Of a stretch of DNA of 38,047 bases, positions 22,692-38,023 are shown piece after piece. The notes below the pieces were generated by a model, which was given only the letters and a program-made list of their open reading frames with translations, searched no databases and was not told the DNA's origin. The first letter of the stretch is position 1. Every line of letters begins with the position of its first letter. The DNA is taken from the NCBI GenBank assembly GCA_947589095.1, contig CANQBX010000035.1:1-38047 (forward strand), given 5' to 3'. The translations under genes were made by a program, and so were the position numbers. The stretch is from an uncultured Lachnospiraceae bacterium. GTDB taxonomy: Bacteria > Bacillota > Clostridia > Lachnospirales > Lachnospiraceae.

Positions 22692-23372
22692 TTACAATGG
22701 GAAACGAAAAACCATTTTCAAACAACCCGTTTCCTTGAGCAGCTTGAATTGCTGTTCATAATTATTTGTCCGCAGTTGAGAATAATATAAGTTGGCGAAC
22801 ACGTCTGCTATTTGAATAAGACGATTCGAAGATGAATCGAAATATTGCACGGTTATGTCTTTGGACAGTACATTTTTCATTCTGAGTTCTGTATTCAGAT
22901 AATTCTGCAAAAAATGTTTTGTATCGGTTCGCTCGTTGCGTTCATCCAATTGTAGTGAATACTCATCGTCAGGGAGATAGCCGTTCTTAAGAAAATACTC
23001 AAAGGCCAGCTTTAATGTGTAATTGAAAGCCCGTGCGGTATTTTCGTATAGTTTTTCTGATATTCTTTTATTGTCAAGCATAATATAGTAAAGTTCTAAA
23101 AGAGAGTCATCACAAAATGTTTCTGTAAAAGCTCTTTTTAGCGGAGGAGAAAACATAGCTCCCTTGAGTTCTTTGAAGTCAGTGCCTCGGAACATTTTGT
23201 GTTCCAGATCGGCTTTTTGTAATTCATCACTGTATTTGGTGACAAAGCGCTTATATAATTTGCGTAATTTATCGGGAGTATCTGTTCGGACGATAGAAAT
23301 AACGAAATAAGGCCAGTGCTGAGAATGCTGAGTTGTCATAGACCCGGATTCATCTATGTATAGGTATTGCAT
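22692..23372 (-). CDS. DUF3800 domain protein
   Basis: This 226-residue protein has the DUF3800 pattern: an N-terminal YIDESGSM strand with acidic residues, QLDERNER in the middle, and QIADVFANLYY near the end. The arrangement of conserved aspartates and glutamates suggests an RNase H-like metal-dependent fold. The molecular function of the family is unknown, although it is often found in mobile and defence-rich regions. The gene is AT-rich and sits on the opposite strand between yajC and leuB, which suggests insertion. A separate promoter and a terminator-bearing leader precede it (23401-23554), so expression is probably controlled by attenuation or an RNA partner. Confidence 0.88.
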   Translation of the reverse strand: MQYLYIDESGSMTTQHSQHWPYFVISIVRTDTPDKLRKLYKRFVTKYSDELQKADLEHKMFRGTDFKELKGAMFSPPLKRAFTETFCDDSLLELYYIMLDNKRISEKLYENTARAFNYTLKLAFEYFLKNGYLPDDEYSLQLDERNERTDTKHFLQNYLNTELRMKNVLSKDITVQYFDSSSNRLIQIADVFANLYYSQLRTNNYEQQFKLLKETGCLKMVFRFPL

Positions 23373-31298: not shown

Positions 31299-32612
31299 AT
31301 GAAAATCAGGAAAATATCGTTAAAGAATTACAGATGTTTTGAACAGATTGAAATGGATTTTCATGACAGGCTGACGGTGATTGTAGGTAATAATGGCGCT
31401 GGCAAAACTTCTGTTTTGGAAGGAACGGCGATTGCCTTAGGGACAGTATTTACGGCTTTAGATGGCTTAAATGGGATGAGTATCAGCAAAAGAGACGCTC
31501 ATTTGAAGGCATATCAGATGGGAAGAACGGATGACGTTCAGGCTCAGTATCCGGTAGAGATTGAGGCAGAAGGAGTCTTAGACCAAAAAGAGGTTATATG
31601 GAAACGGTGCCTGAATGGGAGTGATGGGAATACAACAATCAGGGATGCGAAACAGATACTTGATATTGTAAGGGAGTATCAGGAGAGATTGCGGACTGGA
31701 GATCAGAAGCTCATTCTTCCCATAATTGCTTATTATGGTACTGGCCGGTTATGGGATTATCATAGGGAGAAAAAAACAGATACGTTTAAAGAAAATACAA
31801 AAACGAACGGATATATTGACAGTCTGGATGGTACGGCGAATATCAAGCTGATGATGAACTGGTTTCGTAAGAAGAGCATACAGATGTTTCAGCAAAGTGT
31901 AGCCGGTGTCGATCCGATGCTTGAATTATCTGCGGTATATCAGGCAATGGAGAGCTGTTTTGAACGCAGCACAGGATATAAAAATATCAGACTTGTTTAC
32001 AATTTTGATACGAATGAGATTGATTGCTGCTATGTGGGAGATGATGGCGTTTCTGCGCGGGTGCCGCTTTCGCAGATGAGTGATGGTTATAAAGGGACTA
32101 TTAGTCTGGTTGCGGATATTGCTTATCGTATGGCGGTTCTCAATCCGCAGTTGGGTGAAAATGTGCTGAAAAATACAGATGGCATTGTACTGGTTGATGA
32201 GATTGACCTTCATCTTCATCCGGCGTGGCAGCATCGGATTCTTTCTGACTTGATGGAAATTTTTCCCAAGGTTCAATTCATTGTTACGACACATGCGCCT
32301 GCTGTCATTAGCAGTGTAAAAAGTGAGAATCTTGTGATTTTAAAAAACTATGAGGCGATGGATGCCTTTGCCGAGATATATGGAAACGATGTTAATTCTA
32401 TTCTGAAAAATATTATGGGTGTATCGGATCGTAATCCCGCAGTTGCAAGGCTTTTTGAACAGTTCGATTCAGCCTTGAATGCTGGTCGGTATGATGATGC
32501 GGAGAAGGTGTTGGATGAAATCGATGAGCAGAGGGATTTCCATGATAAAGAAGCAACGGCTGACAGAGTGAAATTGAGATTAGAGAGGATTCGGGGAAGA
32601 AAAAATGATTAA
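31299..32612 (+). CDS. ptuA: Septu-like AAA/ABC-type ATPase (PtuA-like)
   Basis: The 437-residue ATPase has Walker A GNNGAGKTS (30-38), the ABC-type signature LSQMSDGYKG (258-267), Walker B IVLVDEID (296-303) and H-loop TTHAP (330-334), interrupted by a long insert as in SMC-like and RecF-like defence ATPases. It overlaps by 8 bp a gene for an HNH nuclease of the TIGR02646/PtuB type. This pairing defines Septu, an anti-phage system that also appears as the effector half of retron-Ec78. The N-terminal MKIRKISLKNYRCF and the C-terminal helical tail fit PtuA. The gene is AT-rich compared with its flanks, suggesting horizontal gain. Confidence 0.87.
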   Translation: MKIRKISLKNYRCFEQIEMDFHDRLTVIVGNNGAGKTSVLEGTAIALGTVFTALDGLNGMSISKRDAHLKAYQMGRTDDVQAQYPVEIEAEGVLDQKEVIWKRCLNGSDGNTTIRDAKQILDIVREYQERLRTGDQKLILPIIAYYGTGRLWDYHREKKTDTFKENTKTNGYIDSLDGTANIKLMMNWFRKKSIQMFQQSVAGVDPMLELSAVYQAMESCFERSTGYKNIRLVYNFDTNEIDCCYVGDDGVSARVPLSQMSDGYKGTISLVADIAYRMAVLNPQLGENVLKNTDGIVLVDEIDLHLHPAWQHRILSDLMEIFPKVQFIVTTHAPAVISSVKSENLVILKNYEAMDAFAEIYGNDVNSILKNIMGVSDRNPAVARLFEQFDSALNAGRYDDAEKVLDEIDEQRDFHDKEATADRVKLRLERIRGRKND

Positions 32613-33339
32613 AGTGGAAAAAGGCTCCGAACCGGATGCGCTAAAGAAATTACAGGCAGAATGTCTGGCTGCCGGATTTTCACCGAAAGTGTCTTTTGAA
32701 ATGTTGCGTAATCCGCTGAAAGAACAGGTGATAGGATGCTTGAAACGAGATCAGGGTCAATTATGTGTTTATTGTATGAGCAGGATTCCGAGAGATGATA
32801 AGGAAAGGGGAATTCCGGGGCAGACAATTGAGCATCTTATACCGCTCGAACCAACGGATGGACGTGATGTTGGACAGGGCCTTGATTATCAGAACATGTT
32901 TGCAGTATGTCATGGCAATGTGAAAAGACATGAACGTGGCGCCCGAAGAATAAACTCAAAGGACAGTTTGACTTGCGATAAGCATCGAGGAAATACGGAA
33001 TTTAAAAAAATTGATCCGTGCCGCGAGGAAACGTTGCAGACAATTTACTATACTTTAGACGGAAGAATAGATGCTTCTGATCCGGATGTTCAGTTTGATC
33101 TGGTTAATACCTTGAATTTAAATTGTATTTCATCACCAATCGTGGCAGAGCGAAAGGCGGCTTTGGATGAACTGATTGACAATATCGGAAAAATTGAAAT
33201 AGATCATCTACATAGCTATTGTTCGGTTATGTTGGAAGCATTTATGAATGAGATTGATCCTAAAACACCTTATGTTGGAATATTGATCTGGTATTTGAGG
33301 TCATTAGCTGAGGCATTGGAGCATAATATAGCAGGATAG
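32605..33339 (+). CDS. ptuB: Septu-like HNH endonuclease (PtuB-like)
   Basis: The 244-residue protein has the HNH layout of TIGR02646/PtuB proteins: C54-x-x-C57 in LCVYCMSR, the catalytic E76-H77 in TIEHLIPLEP, N97 in YQNMFAVC, and C124/H127 in CDKHRGN. In Septu and retron-Ec78, this nuclease forms a complex with the PtuA ATPase and cuts nucleic acid after infection. Its ATG lies 8 bp inside the end of ptuA, so the two proteins should be made in fixed ratio. No reverse transcriptase is found nearby, so this is the stand-alone form. Confidence 0.87.
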   Translation: MIKVEKGSEPDALKKLQAECLAAGFSPKVSFEMLRNPLKEQVIGCLKRDQGQLCVYCMSRIPRDDKERGIPGQTIEHLIPLEPTDGRDVGQGLDYQNMFAVCHGNVKRHERGARRINSKDSLTCDKHRGNTEFKKIDPCREETLQTIYYTLDGRIDASDPDVQFDLVNTLNLNCISSPIVAERKAALDELIDNIGKIEIDHLHSYCSVMLEAFMNEIDPKTPYVGILIWYLRSLAEALEHNIAG

Positions 33340-33355: not shown

Positions 33356-34600
33356 ATGGCAGACGTAAGACCGTTTGTGTGCGTGAGGCCGGCTGCGGAT
33401 GCGGCGAGTCAGGTGGCGGCGCTTCCGTACGATGTGTACAGCAGGAAGGAAGCCTGCGAGGCGGTGAAAGGACACCCGCTTTCTTTTCTGAATATCGACC
33501 GGGCGGAGACTCAGTTCGCGGACGATGTGGACACTTACGACCCGCGGGTGTACGCGAAGGCGAAGGAGATGCTGGAAGCGGAGATCGCGGACGGGACGTT
33601 TGTGACGGACGAGGGGGAGAATTATTATCTGTACCGGCTGACGATGGACGGGCGGAGCCAGACGGGGATCGTGGCCTGCTGTTCGATCGATGATTATGTA
33701 AACGGCGTGATCAAGAAGCATGAGAATACGCGGGAGGAGAAGGAACTGGACCGGATCCGGCACGTGGATATCACGGGGGCGCATACGGGACCGATCTTTC
33801 TGGCGTACCGGAGAAATGAAACGCTTGCGCAGATCATGGCGGACGTGATGACGGAAGCGCCGCTTTATGATTTCGTTTCGGAGGACGGGATCGGGCATAC
33901 GGTCTGGAAGATCGGCGGCCGGGAAATGGTCGGGGAGATCCGGGAGGCTTTCGGGAAAATTCCGAACACCTATATCGCGGACGGGCATCACCGGGCGGCT
34001 TCGGCGGTGAAGGTAGGGCTGAAGCGGCGGGCGGAGAATCCGGGATACACGGGGCAGGAGGCGTTTAATTACTTCCTGGCGGTACTGTTTCCGGAGGATC
34101 AGCTGATGATCATGCCCTATAACCGGGTGGTGAAGGATCTGAACGGCATGACGGAGGAGGAATTCCTGGCGGCGGTCTCGGAGAAGTTCGGAGTGGAACC
34201 GGTTGGAAAGGCTGCTTACGCCCCGACGGCGAAGGGTACGTTTGGTATGTATCTTGGCGGTAAGTGGTACAAGCTGGCGGCGAAGCCGGAGGTCACCGCG
34301 GCGGTAAACGGCGACCCGGTGAAGAGTTTGGATGTATCGGTGCTGCAGGATTATCTGCTGGGGCCGGTGCTCGGCATCGGAGATCCGCGGCTGGATAAGC
34401 GGATCGATTTCATCGGAGGGATCCGCGGCCTGGGCGAGCTGGAGCGGAGAGTTTCCGAAGATATGACAGTGGCATTTTCCATGTATCCCACGTCGATCGG
34501 GGAGCTGTTCGCCGTGGCGGACGCGGGGCTTTTGATGCCGCCGAAGTCCACCTGGTTTGAGCCGAAGCTGCGCAGCGGGTTATTTATTCATAGAATTTAG
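33356..34600 (+). CDS. DUF1015 family protein
   Basis: The 414-residue protein begins with VRPFVCVRPAADAASQVAALPYDV and has DGHHRAASA (at about residues 207-215), the hallmark of DUF1015, plus NRVVKDLNG and a C-terminal PKSTWFEPKLRSGLFIHRI. The family is usually found next to serA and serC in Clostridia and related bacteria, hinting at a link to serine or phosphoserine metabolism. Its biochemical activity is not established. GAGGT at 33345-33349 provides the ribosome site. The Septu-like pair separates it from serA. Confidence 0.93.
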   Translation: MADVRPFVCVRPAADAASQVAALPYDVYSRKEACEAVKGHPLSFLNIDRAETQFADDVDTYDPRVYAKAKEMLEAEIADGTFVTDEGENYYLYRLTMDGRSQTGIVACCSIDDYVNGVIKKHENTREEKELDRIRHVDITGAHTGPIFLAYRRNETLAQIMADVMTEAPLYDFVSEDGIGHTVWKIGGREMVGEIREAFGKIPNTYIADGHHRAASAVKVGLKRRAENPGYTGQEAFNYFLAVLFPEDQLMIMPYNRVVKDLNGMTEEEFLAAVSEKFGVEPVGKAAYAPTAKGTFGMYLGGKWYKLAAKPEVTAAVNGDPVKSLDVSVLQDYLLGPVLGIGDPRLDKRIDFIGGIRGLGELERRVSEDMTVAFSMYPTSIGELFAVADAGLLMPPKSTWFEPKLRSGLFIHRI

Positions 34601-34636
34601 GCACAATCCTACAGCAGACGTATTACAGAAAATCCA

Positions 34637-34665
34637 TTGATATTTATTCTGGCCTGGCGTATAAT
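34637..34665 (+). promoter_or_regulatory. Promoter of the AbrB/PIN cassette
   Basis: TTGATA (34637-34642) and TATAAT (34660-34665) are spaced by 17 bp, 55 bp upstream of the antitoxin start, in a short gap after the DUF1015 gene. Confidence 0.75.
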
Positions 34666-34719
34666 ATGAAGGAAAGAAAGTAAAGAATGTAGGGAATGGG
34701 TTTGGAAAGGACGATAATT

Positions 34720-34977
34720 ATGGAAGTAGCGAAGGTTTCATCAAAAGGACAGATTACGATACCGGTATCGGTGAGGAATCGCTTGAAATTGAAGGCAGGC
34801 GACAAACTGGTAATCCTGGAAGAAAATGGCAGGTATTATATTGACAATGCAGCTTTGCTGGCATTCAGAAGGGTGGAGGATGCGTTTGCCGGGGAGGCCG
34901 TCAAAGCCGGATTTGAAACGGAGGCAGATATGCAGGATTATATGTTGGAGATTCGGAAAGAAGTAAGGGGGTATTAG
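34720..34977 (+). CDS. AbrB-type antitoxin
   Basis: The 85-residue protein carries the classic AbrB/VapB start VAKVSSKGQITIPVSVRNRLKLKAGDKL followed by VILEENGRYYIDN, and a helical acidic C-terminus that ends in MLEIRKEVRGY. GGAAAGG at 34704-34710 favours ATG 34720 over an in-frame ATG at 34696. A PIN-domain toxin gene starts one base after its stop. The pair should form an autoregulated toxin-antitoxin module. Confidence 0.87.
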   Translation: MEVAKVSSKGQITIPVSVRNRLKLKAGDKLVILEENGRYYIDNAALLAFRRVEDAFAGEAVKAGFETEADMQDYMLEIRKEVRGY

Positions 34978-34978
34978 G

Positions 34979-35377
34979 TTGCGTGTAATGCTTGATACCA
35001 ATGTATTTGTCTCTATGATTTTCTTTCCATCTGACCAAACGAGGGAGTTGGTAAGACGGCTGGCCGGGAGGCATCGTATTGTTGTCTGCGATTATGTAAC
35101 TGAGGAACTCCGCCTGGTGACAGAACGCAAATTTCCCATGAAAAGAGCAGTTCTGGATCAGTTTTTCAGGGAACTTCCGTTTGAATTGGTATATACGCCA
35201 CAAGCGCTCGATCTGTCTGGGTTTCCGAGTGTAAGAGATGCGAAGGATTCGCCAATACTGGCAACTGCTATTTTGGAAGATGTGGATGTCTTTGTAACGG
35301 GAGACAAAGACTTTTTAGTACTGGATATAGAGATACCGGATATAGTTACCATTGCGGAATTTCTGGAAAAATATTAG
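34979..35377 (+). CDS. PIN-domain toxin (TIGR00305-like)
   Basis: This 132-residue PIN-domain protein has its first catalytic aspartate in MLDTN (D6), an acidic TEELRL segment, RDAKDSPIL and TGDKDF. These acidic residues hold the metal ions for RNA cleavage. Translation most likely begins at TTG 34979, since the start LRVMLDTN matches the family and the next ATG would cut into the first strand; AAGGGGG precedes it. PIN toxins of this branch are the putative toxin component of AbrB-linked pairs. Confidence 0.87.
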   Translation: MRVMLDTNVFVSMIFFPSDQTRELVRRLAGRHRIVVCDYVTEELRLVTERKFPMKRAVLDQFFRELPFELVYTPQALDLSGFPSVRDAKDSPILATAILEDVDVFVTGDKDFLVLDIEIPDIVTIAEFLEKY

Positions 35378-35455
35378 ATTCTTTTGTTAAGAAAATGAAA
35401 ATGGCGATATCCGAAGCAAAGAAAAACAGACAGCAGACACATTATGCAAAATTGG

Positions 35456-35740
35456 TTATTTATTTTTCAGAATTTTGATCAGATCAGTTATAATCGCAAT
35501 TTCGTCTTCTGATAATCCGGATAAATCTGCGTCCTGATGATAATTAACCCCCAGAAGATAGTCCGTAGAGGTTTTGAATATTCTGGCCAGAGAAATCAAT
35601 ACATCGTAGGATGGCATACGAAGACCGGTTTCGTATGCGCTGATTACTGACTTCGTCAATCCCAATTTATCTGCAAGCTGTTTTTGCGTTAAATTATGCT
35701 TAATCCTCAGGGTTTTGAGTGTGTTGCCAAAGTATATCAT
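35456..35740 (-). CDS. XRE-type transcriptional regulator
   Basis: The 94-residue protein has a Cro/C1-type DNA-binding domain: LKTLRIKHNLTQKQLADKLG, recognition helix TKSVISAYETGLRMPS, and LISLARIFKTSTDYLLGV. A short acidic helical tail follows, probably for dimerisation. It is divergent from the small-protein JAMM operon and is the obvious candidate regulator. A perfect dyad, ACTATATC (35764-35771) with GATATAGT (35801-35808), lies in the shared control region. GGAGG (plus 35750-35754 complement) is its ribosome site. Confidence 0.88.
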   Translation of the reverse strand: MIYFGNTLKTLRIKHNLTQKQLADKLGLTKSVISAYETGLRMPSYDVLISLARIFKTSTDYLLGVNYHQDADLSGLSEDEIAIITDLIKILKNK

Positions 35741-35763
35741 GTCAATACCTCCATCTACAGTTT

Positions 35764-35808
35764 ACTATATCTATGGACTTTAATTGGTTGATTATGTATT
35801 GATATAGT
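35764..35808. promoter_or_regulatory. Candidate XRE operator dyad
   Basis: ACTATATC at 35764-35771 and its exact inverted copy GATATAGT at 35801-35808 lie between the divergent XRE gene and the JAMM operon. The right half directly abuts the -35 box at 35808, so binding should block that promoter. Confidence 0.55.
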
Positions 35809-35835
35809 TGACTTTTGCAAAGAATTCGTTATAAT
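35808..35835 (+). promoter_or_regulatory. Promoter of the JAMM operon
   Basis: TTGACT (35808-35813) and TATAAT (35830-35835) with a 16-bp spacer lie 81 bp upstream of the first small open frame of the operon. Confidence 0.75.
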
Positions 35836-35915
35836 ATTATGTAATGGCAAAAAGAAAATCAGGGTGATGGGATTTTGCCCTGAGCGCTGCTTATAAAACA
35901 GGCGGAGGTGGTTGC

Positions 35916-36089
35916 ATGTGTAAAATGACGACAAGCGATTACTACCGATACAGGTCCGCGATCCAGGCGGCCAATGATACCGGGGACAGGGAAGCCTTGA
36001 GACAGATTCAGAAGCAGCTTATTGCGAAATACGGATTGGATGATGAGGATGTAAGGCAGCTGTTAAAATATTTTAAATATTCCGTTTGA
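35916..36089 (+). CDS. Small helical protein of 57 residues
   Basis: A short open frame starts at ATG 35916 behind GGAGGTGG (35904-35911) and ends at TGA 36087-36089. The 57-residue product begins MCKMTTSDYYRY and is mostly predicted helix (AIQAANDTGDREALRQIQK, then DDEDVRQLLKYF). It has no signal peptide and no family I recognise. It is the first gene of the operon containing the zinc-ribbon and JAMM proteins. The strong ribosome site and promoter placement support it as a real gene. Confidence 0.7.
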   Translation: MCKMTTSDYYRYRSAIQAANDTGDREALRQIQKQLIAKYGLDDEDVRQLLKYFKYSV

Positions 36090-36149
36090 TATATTCCGGA
36101 AGGAACAAGGTCGAGGATTCTTATAAAACAAATGAAAAGGAGGACGATT

Positions 36150-36323
36150 ATGAAAAGAAAGATTCAGAAACTGGAGATCCCAACGCTCAAATTTAACAGC
36201 GATTATTTTGAGTGTCCGAAATGCGGATGGCGTTATCCCGGTCCTCTGCTTATTAAAGGAGATATCGCGCCGTCGACTCCGTGCCAAAACTGCGGCAATT
36301 CTTATCTGGTTCGTGTGAAATAA
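36150..36323 (+). CDS. Small zinc-ribbon protein
   Basis: The 57-residue protein contains a treble of C-x2-C pairs: ECPKCGW and PCQNCGNS, 26 residues apart, the arrangement of a zinc ribbon. AAAGGAGG at 36136-36142 indicates ATG 36150 rather than the in-frame ATG at 36132. It ends one base before the JAMM gene begins, so the two are probably coupled. Zinc ribbons can bind nucleic acid or partner proteins; no more specific role can be read from it. Confidence 0.78.
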   Translation: MKRKIQKLEIPTLKFNSDYFECPKCGWRYPGPLLIKGDIAPSTPCQNCGNSYLVRVK

Positions 36324-36324
36324 T

Positions 36325-36798
36325 ATGCGGTGCAGTTCTGCTGTAAAAGTTCTGCTGTTGCCAAAGGCATACTGTCAGATCAGAAGCGGGGTACTCGCTG
36401 TAAATAATGAATTTGAAATTGGCGGTATTCTTTTGGGATATAAATTCTTAAATCGATATTTTATTGCTGCAGTGACTGTTTCAACAGAACCGGCAGAGAG
36501 ATCGAAGGTGTCATTTGTTCTGGATGGCAAATGGCATACAGCTCGCGTGAAAGAGTATATGCAGGAGTTTCGGTGTAAGCCATCTATATTGGGGATTTGG
36601 CACAGCCATATTTGTGATGTCGATACTTTTTCGGAACTGGACAGGCAGTCAAACAGACGGCTTGCCGAGACCTTTGGAAGTATACTGTCTATGATAGTGA
36701 TGCTGACCATGCCTTCACGGGACTTGAATCTGACAACGTATTTTATACGCTCTGGGAGAAAGGAAACTCCTTGTCAGCTTATGTCTATGATCAGATAG
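36325..36798 (+). CDS. JAMM/MPN-type metalloprotease (Prok-JAB-like)
   Basis: The 157-residue protein has every element of a JAMM active site: the conserved glutamate in FEIGGILLG (E32) and the zinc signature H-S-H-x7-S-x2-D in WHSHICDVDTFSELD. The family cuts isopeptide or peptide bonds, often after a C-terminal glycine of ubiquitin-like proteins, and serves in deconjugation or sulphur transfer. It is preceded directly by a zinc-ribbon gene and followed by an unknown 244-residue protein. No E1, E2 or ubiquitin-like gene is in this window, so the substrate is unknown. Its start at 36325 lacks a clear ribosome site and probably relies on coupling. Confidence 0.87.
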   Translation: MRCSSAVKVLLLPKAYCQIRSGVLAVNNEFEIGGILLGYKFLNRYFIAAVTVSTEPAERSKVSFVLDGKWHTARVKEYMQEFRCKPSILGIWHSHICDVDTFSELDRQSNRRLAETFGSILSMIVMLTMPSRDLNLTTYFIRSGRKETPCQLMSMIR

Positions 36799-36838
36799 CT
36801 CGTTTTACAGTAGTCTGCAGATAAAAGAGGGGCGAATC

Positions 36839-37573
36839 ATGGGACGAACAATAAGAATAACGCGCCCGAAAAAGATGGCGGGGAGATTTGTTACGTATCA
36901 AATAACGATTGATAATATAATAATGGCTCAGATAGAGAATGATTCCACAATAAGTCTCACGATTGATTCATCACCACATGTCATCGGACTGGTCGTTCCA
37001 GACTGGTCTTCACCGGGAATCCAAATTCCGGAAGGTCGAGAAGGCTATGCTTTTTCTATTTCTTTCGTTACTGATTTCAGCAGATTGCGGTCGTGGGGGT
37101 TGACTACATCTGTTACGGTGGGTGGTCCCTGTCTGACGTTAACAGAAGTGCTTCCGGCGGAAGAACTCTCTGAAAACACAGAATCGGTGATGGATCAATA
37201 TGCAGATTTTATCGCCTTTAGAGAGTCTTTGGTAAAGTTCATGATAAAGGTATTTAACGGACAGGGAATCATGGATCGGATACAGCTTGAAAACAATAGT
37301 CATCACAATATATACATAGTCGTACATGATGATTGTATTTCTGTAGAATATGAACCGATACATACGAGAGACGTTATTCAGTGGGCAACAGGGCGAATTG
37401 CTGAAAAGATATATTATAGCGAAATGGGCTTGGAATTACCGGCAGAACTGCCGCCGCGCTGGTCTGAAACCCTTTTGCGGGAGATTACTCAGGGAATCAT
37501 TTCCAGCAATCCGGAATTGAGTTGTGACGAATTTGGAGGAATCTGTCGGACAAAACTACATCGGTTATACTGA
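36839..37573 (+). CDS. Unknown protein with N-terminal beta domain
   Basis: This 244-residue protein is not one I recognise. Its N-terminal 50 residues (IRITRPKKMAGRFVTYQITID, then IENDSTISLTIDSSPHVIGL) resemble small beta-sandwich domains that follow a K-R-P-K start, such as PEGA or DUF2846-like ones. The middle is beta-rich (GYAFSISFVTDFSRL). The C-terminal part is helical and acidic, and near the end has DEFGG followed by ten residues. A G-G pair ten residues from the end recalls a ubiquitin-like precursor tail, but the rest does not look ubiquitin-like. GAGGGG upstream of ATG 36839 supports the start. It lies between the JAMM gene and a small cysteine-rich protein. Confidence 0.72.
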   Translation: MGRTIRITRPKKMAGRFVTYQITIDNIIMAQIENDSTISLTIDSSPHVIGLVVPDWSSPGIQIPEGREGYAFSISFVTDFSRLRSWGLTTSVTVGGPCLTLTEVLPAEELSENTESVMDQYADFIAFRESLVKFMIKVFNGQGIMDRIQLENNSHHNIYIVVHDDCISVEYEPIHTRDVIQWATGRIAEKIYYSEMGLELPAELPPRWSETLLREITQGIISSNPELSCDEFGGICRTKLHRLY

Positions 37574-37605
37574 GAAAATTTCCATCTTTTACGGGAGGCG
37601 TCAAA

Positions 37606-37734
37606 ATGAGCGCTGACGAGCGGTGCAGCAATTGTGTTTACTGGCAGAACAGAAAATGCACGGTGACGGGACAAGTCAGGAATGACGGAATCTGTACCTG
37701 CGGAGAGTTCAAAAAACGCAGAGAGAATGCATAG
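37606..37734 (+). CDS. Small cysteine-rich protein of 42 residues
   Basis: A short frame starts at ATG 37606 behind GGGAGG (37593-37598) and ends at TAG 37732-37734. The product has five cysteines (C7, C10, C18, C30, C32) in RCSNCVYW, KCTVTG and ICTCGEF. That pattern suggests a small metal-binding knuckle. Proteins with a C-x2-C-x-Y-W start occur as short accessory proteins near mobile elements; the function is unknown. It is the last gene of the operon before a terminator. Confidence 0.72.
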   Translation: MSADERCSNCVYWQNRKCTVTGQVRNDGICTCGEFKKRRENA

Positions 37735-37791
37735 TGAGGAGAAATAACAGTTTTTCCGGAGAATTTAAGAATCTACGGAATATAAAATCAG

Positions 37792-37825
37792 GCATGGTCA
37801 GTTGAAAGACTTTCCATGCTTTTTT
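37792..37825 (+). terminator. Intrinsic terminator after the JAMM operon
   Basis: GCATGG (37792-37797) pairs with CCATGC (37814-37819), followed by six T, 57 bp after the stop of the cysteine-rich gene. Weak inner pairing (AGT with ACT) extends the stem. Confidence 0.82.
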
Positions 37826-37849
37826 ATAAAATATCAGACAATCCCTGTC

Positions 37850-37878
37850 TTGTCAGGCGGCGGCACTTATGCTATATT
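37850..37878 (+). promoter_or_regulatory. Promoter of the transcription unit leaving the window
   Basis: TTGTCA (37850-37855) and TATATT (37873-37878) are spaced by 17 bp, directly after the terminator. About 140 bp of leader separate it from the next start codon at 38024. Confidence 0.6.
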
Positions 37879-38023
37879 TTATATAGTTTGCGGTTCCAGC
37901 CGGCGGGCAGGGGCCGCAGGCCGCGAAAGAGACTCGCAGCAGGGCTTCATAGAAAAAATAGTAGAAGAGATTTATTACAGTGAGCGGTTCCTCAGAAGGA
38001 CGCCGCGTCGGGAGGATTCATCA

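Follow-up and report, generated by a model that had tools for sequence, protein, structure and literature searches.

A zinc ribbon and a JAMM metallopeptidase as the candidate two-gene core of an accessory, putatively E1-independent unit in an uncultured Lachnospiraceae bacterium

JAMM peptidases of bacteria are commonly regarded as the enzymes that erase a ubiquitin-like mark. We analysed a 38,047-nucleotide contig of an uncultured Lachnospiraceae bacterium (CANQBX010000035.1, assembly GCA_947589095.1; hereafter the window), in which positions 35456-37734 hold a divergent XRE gene facing a five-gene operon (35916-37734) for p57, the zinc ribbon protein ZnR, a JAMM protein, p244 and Cys42. Our best reading of this locus, to which we give a probability of about 0.45, is an accessory, XRE-controlled and E1-independent JAMM metallopeptidase of two subunits, belonging to the defence or toxin-antitoxin class. 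An earlier interpretation made from the letters alone (the sequence-only reading) had taken the five operon genes as one system. This view did not hold: apart from a nearly identical second assembly, only ZnR and JAMM recur in the loci fetched. The co-occurrence of homologues, which that reading had proposed as a check, is accordingly seen for ZnR with JAMM and not for p57, p244 or Cys42. Our results thus support the earlier reading in part, with the unit reduced to two core genes and the other three as local additions.

The core enzyme (157 amino acids, 36325-36798, plus strand) contains the complete metal-site motif expected of its family (E31, H93-x-H95 and S103-x-x-D106) and matches the Pfam Prok-JAB model, narrowly, at 26.1 bits against a cut-off of 25. 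The sequence-only reading was right to call it complete. It is a JAMM/MPN+ metallopeptidase of the Prok-JAB type, with a predicted zinc-dependent (iso)peptidase activity; no relative was found by sequence in the PDB. ZnR lies directly upstream on the same strand. Its best start is the ATG at 36150, which follows an AGGAGG sequence and gives a protein of 57 amino acids (36150-36323); an alternative form of 63 amino acids would begin at 36132. ZnR has a CxxC-x19-CxxC ribbon pattern, and a single nucleotide separates its stop codon from the JAMM start.

Among 392 genomes of the order, the closest JAMM protein comes from another family (G288). It is 39-42% identical to that of the window, and the ZnR encoded ahead of it is 68% identical. 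A profile built from these two pairs retrieved a third one among 358 genomes of the window's own family (G935), where the identity falls to 40% for ZnR and 20% for JAMM. Despite these low values, the window and G935 share the four cysteines of the ribbon and an IPxxKFxSxYF motif; in G935, conservation of ZnR does not extend to its C-terminus. In all three loci, which belong to different genera and have differing neighbours, ZnR stands directly ahead of JAMM, the two genes being 1 nucleotide apart in the window and in G288 and overlapping in G935. The G288 pair is flanked by small proteins that resemble ribbon-helix-helix regulators by eye and by rplQ, and the G935 pair by a serine resolvase and a protein with a CFI-box-CTERM domain. 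The latter, encoded downstream of the pair (L063 1998-2462), has a cysteine-rich N-terminus and looks faintly like Cys42 by eye, with no sequence match between them.

Searches with a ZnR profile in sets of 391, 58 and 93 genomes, which overlap and for which the cut-offs differ, gave no strong match away from a JAMM gene. When the 40 loci with weak matches (E 4e-5 to 0.01) were scanned for a frame with the JAMM motif, the only positive was the G288 locus itself. The ZnR-JAMM core is rare, and its function is a predicted one. From the co-occurrence, the spacing and the stronger conservation of ZnR, we infer that ZnR would be the partner of JAMM and would set its substrate. In both comparisons the ribbon is better conserved than the enzyme (68% versus 39% in G288, 40% versus 20% in G935), a pattern that fits a surface matching both JAMM and something else. 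It fits an antitoxin less well, since antitoxins usually diverge faster than their toxins. A toxin-antitoxin-like pair, in which JAMM would be a toxic peptidase restrained by the upstream ZnR, is for this reason quite unlikely in our view, even though the small gene directly before an enzyme gene, the toxin-antitoxin hotspot, the VapBC-like neighbour and the local XRE gene would all suit it.

A further line of evidence concerns conjugation partners. Three genome searches returned 14 JAMM matches outside the window's genome, and 12 loci remained once two weak, partial matches with internal stops (G149 and G398) had been dropped. At 10 of these 12 clostridial loci a ThiF-family protein, as recognized with Pfam, is encoded adjacent to the JAMM gene or one gene away, so the pairing of JAMM with E1 holds for most of them. 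The two exceptions are precisely the ZnR loci of G288 and G935, which like the window carry a small zinc ribbon instead, and no E1 is found near the ZnR-JAMM pair in any of the 3 loci. This distribution is one of the grounds for the E1-independent reading. Within the window, no ThiF or E2 match was obtained among the scanned proteins, and p57, ZnR, p244 and Cys42 gave no match to a ubiquitin-like protein at the sequence level in Pfam, NCBIfam or PHROGs. The window spans its contig completely, and the final 24 bases up to 38047 are the start of aspS; no E1 or E2 gene therefore lies immediately beyond this point, where the sequence-only reading had advised to look. Its statement that no E1, E2 or ubiquitin-like partner is visible in the unit was borne out, with aspS bounding the insert and the ThiF gene of the host located elsewhere. 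The genome to which the window belongs (97.6% complete) contains one ThiF gene, on contig C5, whose best model is TcdA (169.7 bits against a cut-off of 304), and no ThiS at E 0.01. Since the only ThiF of the host is TcdA-like and ThiS was not found, it is unlikely that the JAMM protein erases a host-made ubiquitin-like mark, with a caveat for p57 and p244.

To place the JAMM protein among its relatives, we compared 15 sequences in a tree. Five CBASS-linked JAMMs, so labelled from gene order by eye and with PADLOC run on two of the five, form one clade (100/99), and the ZnR-linked JAMMs group with those of operons that contain E1 and an FtsK-like protein (branch 95/91). In CBASS type II, Cap3 is a JAMM isopeptidase that acts on conjugates made by Cap2. 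The window protein resembles Cap3 in its size, in standing alone and in its accessory surroundings, and it does match the JAB models of PADLOC, at 46.2 bits versus 154.8 and 163.8 for two CBASS-linked JAMMs. However, its unit has no CD-NTase gene and no gene for the E1-E2 protein Cap2, and its NCBIfam Cap3 score is 31.9 bits against a cut-off of 200. Because of the low scores, the separate clade and the missing partners, we reject an identity with Cap3. Bil/Bub operons combine a JAMM-type deconjugase with E1, E2 and a ubiquitin-like protein; the window's unit shares the JAMM type with them, but none of these three partners is seen in it. In the LysW/LysK and CysO/Mec+ systems, a small carrier protein is associated with a releasing metallopeptidase. 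The tiny carrier-like ZnR next to a metallopeptidase recalls this arrangement, whereas no ligase or biosynthetic gene is seen at the window locus, the match of ZnR to LysW is weak (E 0.023) and the ZnR C-terminus is not kept in G935.

By profile, the nearest E1-linked JAMMs (66-73 bits) belong to E1-JAB-FtsK-like operons of Clostridia (G085, G196, G945 and G807, the FtsK domain having been tested in G085 only), and in the tree they share a side with the window protein. In contrast to the window, these operons have ThiF next door and no ZnR, and their JAMM proteins read HRHP where that of the window reads HSHIC. Two explanations build on this proximity. In the first, the window protein would be an orphan deconjugase used for counter-defence, stripping ubiquitin-like or CD-NTase conjugates made by the E1/E2 systems of other elements, such as CBASS type II or the E1-JAB-FtsK operons, with ZnR docking. 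The nearest JAMMs outside the ZnR loci do come from E1 and FtsK-like operons, and in the host itself there is no conjugation system that the protein could serve. Nevertheless, the E1-linked set has HxHP in the catalytic loop and the window protein does not, the CBASS JABs form their own clade and no conjugate target is visible, related strains not having been searched for such E1 systems; we regard this explanation as unlikely. The second holds that the gene is a drifting remnant of an E1-JAB operon that has lost its partners, as its position on the same side of the tree might suggest. This is very unlikely, given that three diverged loci all retain an intact motif and frame, that the specific ZnR is kept in all 3 and that not a single ZnR codon changed between two assemblies.

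JAB peptidases have been described in sporadic accessory operons, one type of which (6e) includes a further zinc-finger-like protein, in the part of Iyer et al. (2006, PMC1779556) considered here. In that part, the operons pair JAB with an E1-like and/or a Ub-like protein, and the finger, C-x3-C-x35-38-H-x2-C, differs from the CxxC-x19-CxxC of the window's ZnR. The zinc ribbon-JAMM pair was not found described in the literature searched, which covered neither preprints nor most subscription papers. Two of the clostridial operons with E1 and JAB were delimited, at L017 2342-8814, which includes a 1,436-amino-acid FtsK/SpoIIIE-type ATPase, and at L065 905-3399. Both have a conserved neighbour of about 170-190 amino acids without a Pfam match, which could be an E2-like protein. 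We also noted that residue 97 of the window's JAMM is a cysteine and that all three ZnR-linked JAMMs have a cysteine two or three residues past HxH; the other 12 JAMMs of the set read HxHP or HTHN at that place. This cysteine could serve as a metal or redox switch.

Control of the unit was examined in the region between the two divergent transcripts. The XRE repressor (94 amino acids, 35456-35740, minus strand) matches HTH_3 with an E-value of 1.4e-18. A sigma-70-type promoter for the operon, TTGACT-16-TATAAT, lies on the plus strand at 35808-35835 and fits the consensus at 11 of 12 positions, in agreement with the promoter claimed previously. The promoter scan alone is weak, because it listed 10 sites in the region against a mean of 6.0 in shuffled sequences. 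A dyad had also been proposed beside the promoter. Inverted repeats are indeed present, but they are better called two inverted operator-like copies, one ahead of the XRE gene (35759-35774, minus strand) and one at 35798-35813 on the plus strand. These are complementary at 13 of 16 positions, a value reached by 3 of 200 shuffles; the motif GATATAGTNNACT is confined to the two copies within the 38-kb window, and the second copy extends into the -35 box of the operon promoter. From this overlap, the XRE protein is expected to bind the paired operators and to repress the operon promoter, and the operon would be switched on once XRE is removed. At the other end, a hairpin with a T run (37781-37828, plus strand) follows Cys42, as announced by the sequence-only reading; it was missed by the consensus scan that had listed the promoter, and folding of 37775-37830 gives -17.4 kcal/mol (z -4.2).

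Several observations weigh against our preferred reading of an XRE-controlled, E1-independent pair. No XRE gene was seen by eye beside ZnR-JAMM in G288 or G935, which indicates that XRE control is local to the window. The same observation makes a switch of the ImmA/ImmR kind, in which JAMM would cleave the divergent XRE repressor and thereby turn on the island, highly improbable; here a metalloprotease operon does face an XRE gene with shared operator-like repeats, but ImmA is another type of protease. The G288 genome, in which neither ThiF (E 0.001) nor a ThiS above the cut-off was detected, is only 85% complete, and G935 does have ThiF and ThiS genes, on contigs other than that of the pair. 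Either p57 or p244 could be an unrecognized ubiquitin-like protein. Moreover, the pair is known from three loci only. The tree does not group their JAMM proteins together (4% of bootstrap trees do so) and has G935 on a long branch, so that it neither establishes nor excludes that the pair arose once. Finally, the window's ZnR and JAMM gave no member in collections of phages, plasmids and viral contigs. JAMM had no confirmed relative in IMG/VR, PLSDB or INPHARED, and ZnR had none in INPHARED or PLSDB. Alignment-led scans of IMG/VR with ZnR, JAMM and the G935 JAMM yielded nothing confirmed, confirmation relying on tblastn with the first sequence only, by which divergent members may be missed. 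A phage or plasmid origin, which was considered, received no support from the IMG/VR, PLSDB and INPHARED searches. The G935 JAMM query found seven plasmid records at 25-27% identity. Two are Gloeothece plasmids with stand-alone Mov34 genes and no ZnR, one is a Sphingobium record with a long Mov34 protein, and four, from Burkholderia, were left unread; the G935 ZnR query gave no plasmid match. By sequence, ZnR matched PDB entries at chance level only (best E 0.083).

If our reading of the pair is correct, the following course can be proposed. Once repression is relieved, ZnR and JAMM would be made together through start-stop coupling, as their spacing suggests. The zinc ribbon would dock on JAMM as an obligate partner and recognize, present or license the substrate, as co-occurrence, spacing and conservation would predict. 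At a peptide or isopeptide bond, the zinc site (E31, H93, H95 and D106) would then cut a protein presumably not conjugated by the host, because neither a dedicated E1 nor a ThiS was detected in the host genome. Judging from the hotspot in which the genes lie, the likeliest purpose would be defence against phages or competing elements, and the outcome would be defence or conflict between elements. Going further, ZnR-JAMM might constitute a minimal immune or conflict system devoid of a ubiquitin-like cascade, with the ribbon as sensor, adaptor or even substrate of JAMM. We hold this to be possible and rather doubtful; if true, such a ribbon would be a non-beta-grasp counterpart of the ubiquitin/JAMM relationship. 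A functional pair would mean that bacteria put JAMM chemistry to use in accessory islands with no E1, E2 or ubiquitin-like protein; with its two genes in about 650 bp, the module would make partner-licensed JAMM activity directly testable.

The remaining operon genes, all on the plus strand, would be locus-specific passengers or helpers; in the ZnR-JAMM loci of G288 and G935, nothing matches p57, p244 or Cys42. p57 (57 amino acids, predicted helical, 35916-36089) has a weak match to DUF3867, at 21.7 bits, under the cut-off of 27. p244 (36839-37573), to which no fold could be assigned, has a single full-length homologue (G159, E 1.7e-30), which stands alone between pncB- and gltS-like genes. 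Its N-terminal domain alone occurs in a 98-amino-acid protein of G198, in a G175 protein cut by the contig end and in a second G159 protein of 287 amino acids; a further match in G264 (E 0.004) looks like chance. No relatives of p244 were found in IMG/VR or PLSDB, and by sequence its PDB matches were at chance level only (best E 0.56). Cys42 (42 amino acids, cysteine-rich, 37606-37734) received no family assignment in the family-library scans.

A second assembly contains the same stretch. Its 3,421-bp contig (L008) aligns over its full length with 34475-37895 and shows 19 differences, which makes an assembly accident an unlikely source of the arrangement. The positions and kinds of the genes also agree with the sequence-only reading (XRE, 57-residue helical protein, 57-residue zinc ribbon, complete JAMM, 244-residue protein and 42-residue cysteine-rich protein), as judged from open frames, Pfam and motif. 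Between the two assemblies, the number of changed codons is 0 in ZnR, 3 in JAMM, 2 in p244 and 7 in Cys42, the highest of the eight genes compared, which marks Cys42 as fast-changing. The second contig is recorded under an uncultured Alistipes (isolate 'Lapin-025', rabbit sample), a bin placement that is probably wrong, since the contig holds a Clostridia locus.

The unit is part of an insert. In G002, a genome of the same genus, homology to the window stops after base 34599 and starts again at 37842, and G002 has just 25 nucleotides in between; positions 34600-37841 are therefore a 3.2-kb insert between DUF1015 and aspS, which carries a VapBC-like pair in addition to the XRE/JAMM unit. Its GC content is 41.9%, versus 59.2% for DUF1015 and 59.4% for serA. 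DUF1015 is present in 20 of 26 genomes of the genus, including the window's own, and its surroundings were compared in the 19 others. The JAMM, ZnR, Septu and VapBC-like genes are absent from these 19 fetched stretches (tblastn, E 1e-10); aspS follows DUF1015 after 208-317 nucleotides in 4 of the 19 relatives and was not found in the fetched stretch of the other 15. Within the insert, an AbrB/MazE-type antitoxin and a PIN toxin (VapC-like, with a TTG start) are encoded at 34720-35377. Septu genes (PtuA, E 8e-136; PtuB, E 4e-45) form a second insert, between serA and DUF1015, at 31299-33339. In the relative G014, a ToxN toxin occupies the serA-DUF1015 gap (L091 754-1467), and a DUF6036 nucleotidyltransferase and an HTH protein follow DUF1015 before the contig end (L091 2837-4163). 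From the Septu and VapBC-like genes in the window, the ToxN and DUF6036 genes in G014 and the empty site in G002, we conclude that the serA-DUF1015-aspS place is a small exchange site for toxin-antitoxin and defence genes, as seen in the window and one relative. The JAMM unit has in this respect one feature of anti-phage systems, its location in such a site, and the earlier description of a protease-centred unit beside Septu and toxin-antitoxin genes agrees with an accessory insert whose counterpart in a relative holds other toxin-antitoxin-type genes. Elsewhere in the window, a DUF3800 protein is encoded on the minus strand at 22692-23372, among housekeeping genes.

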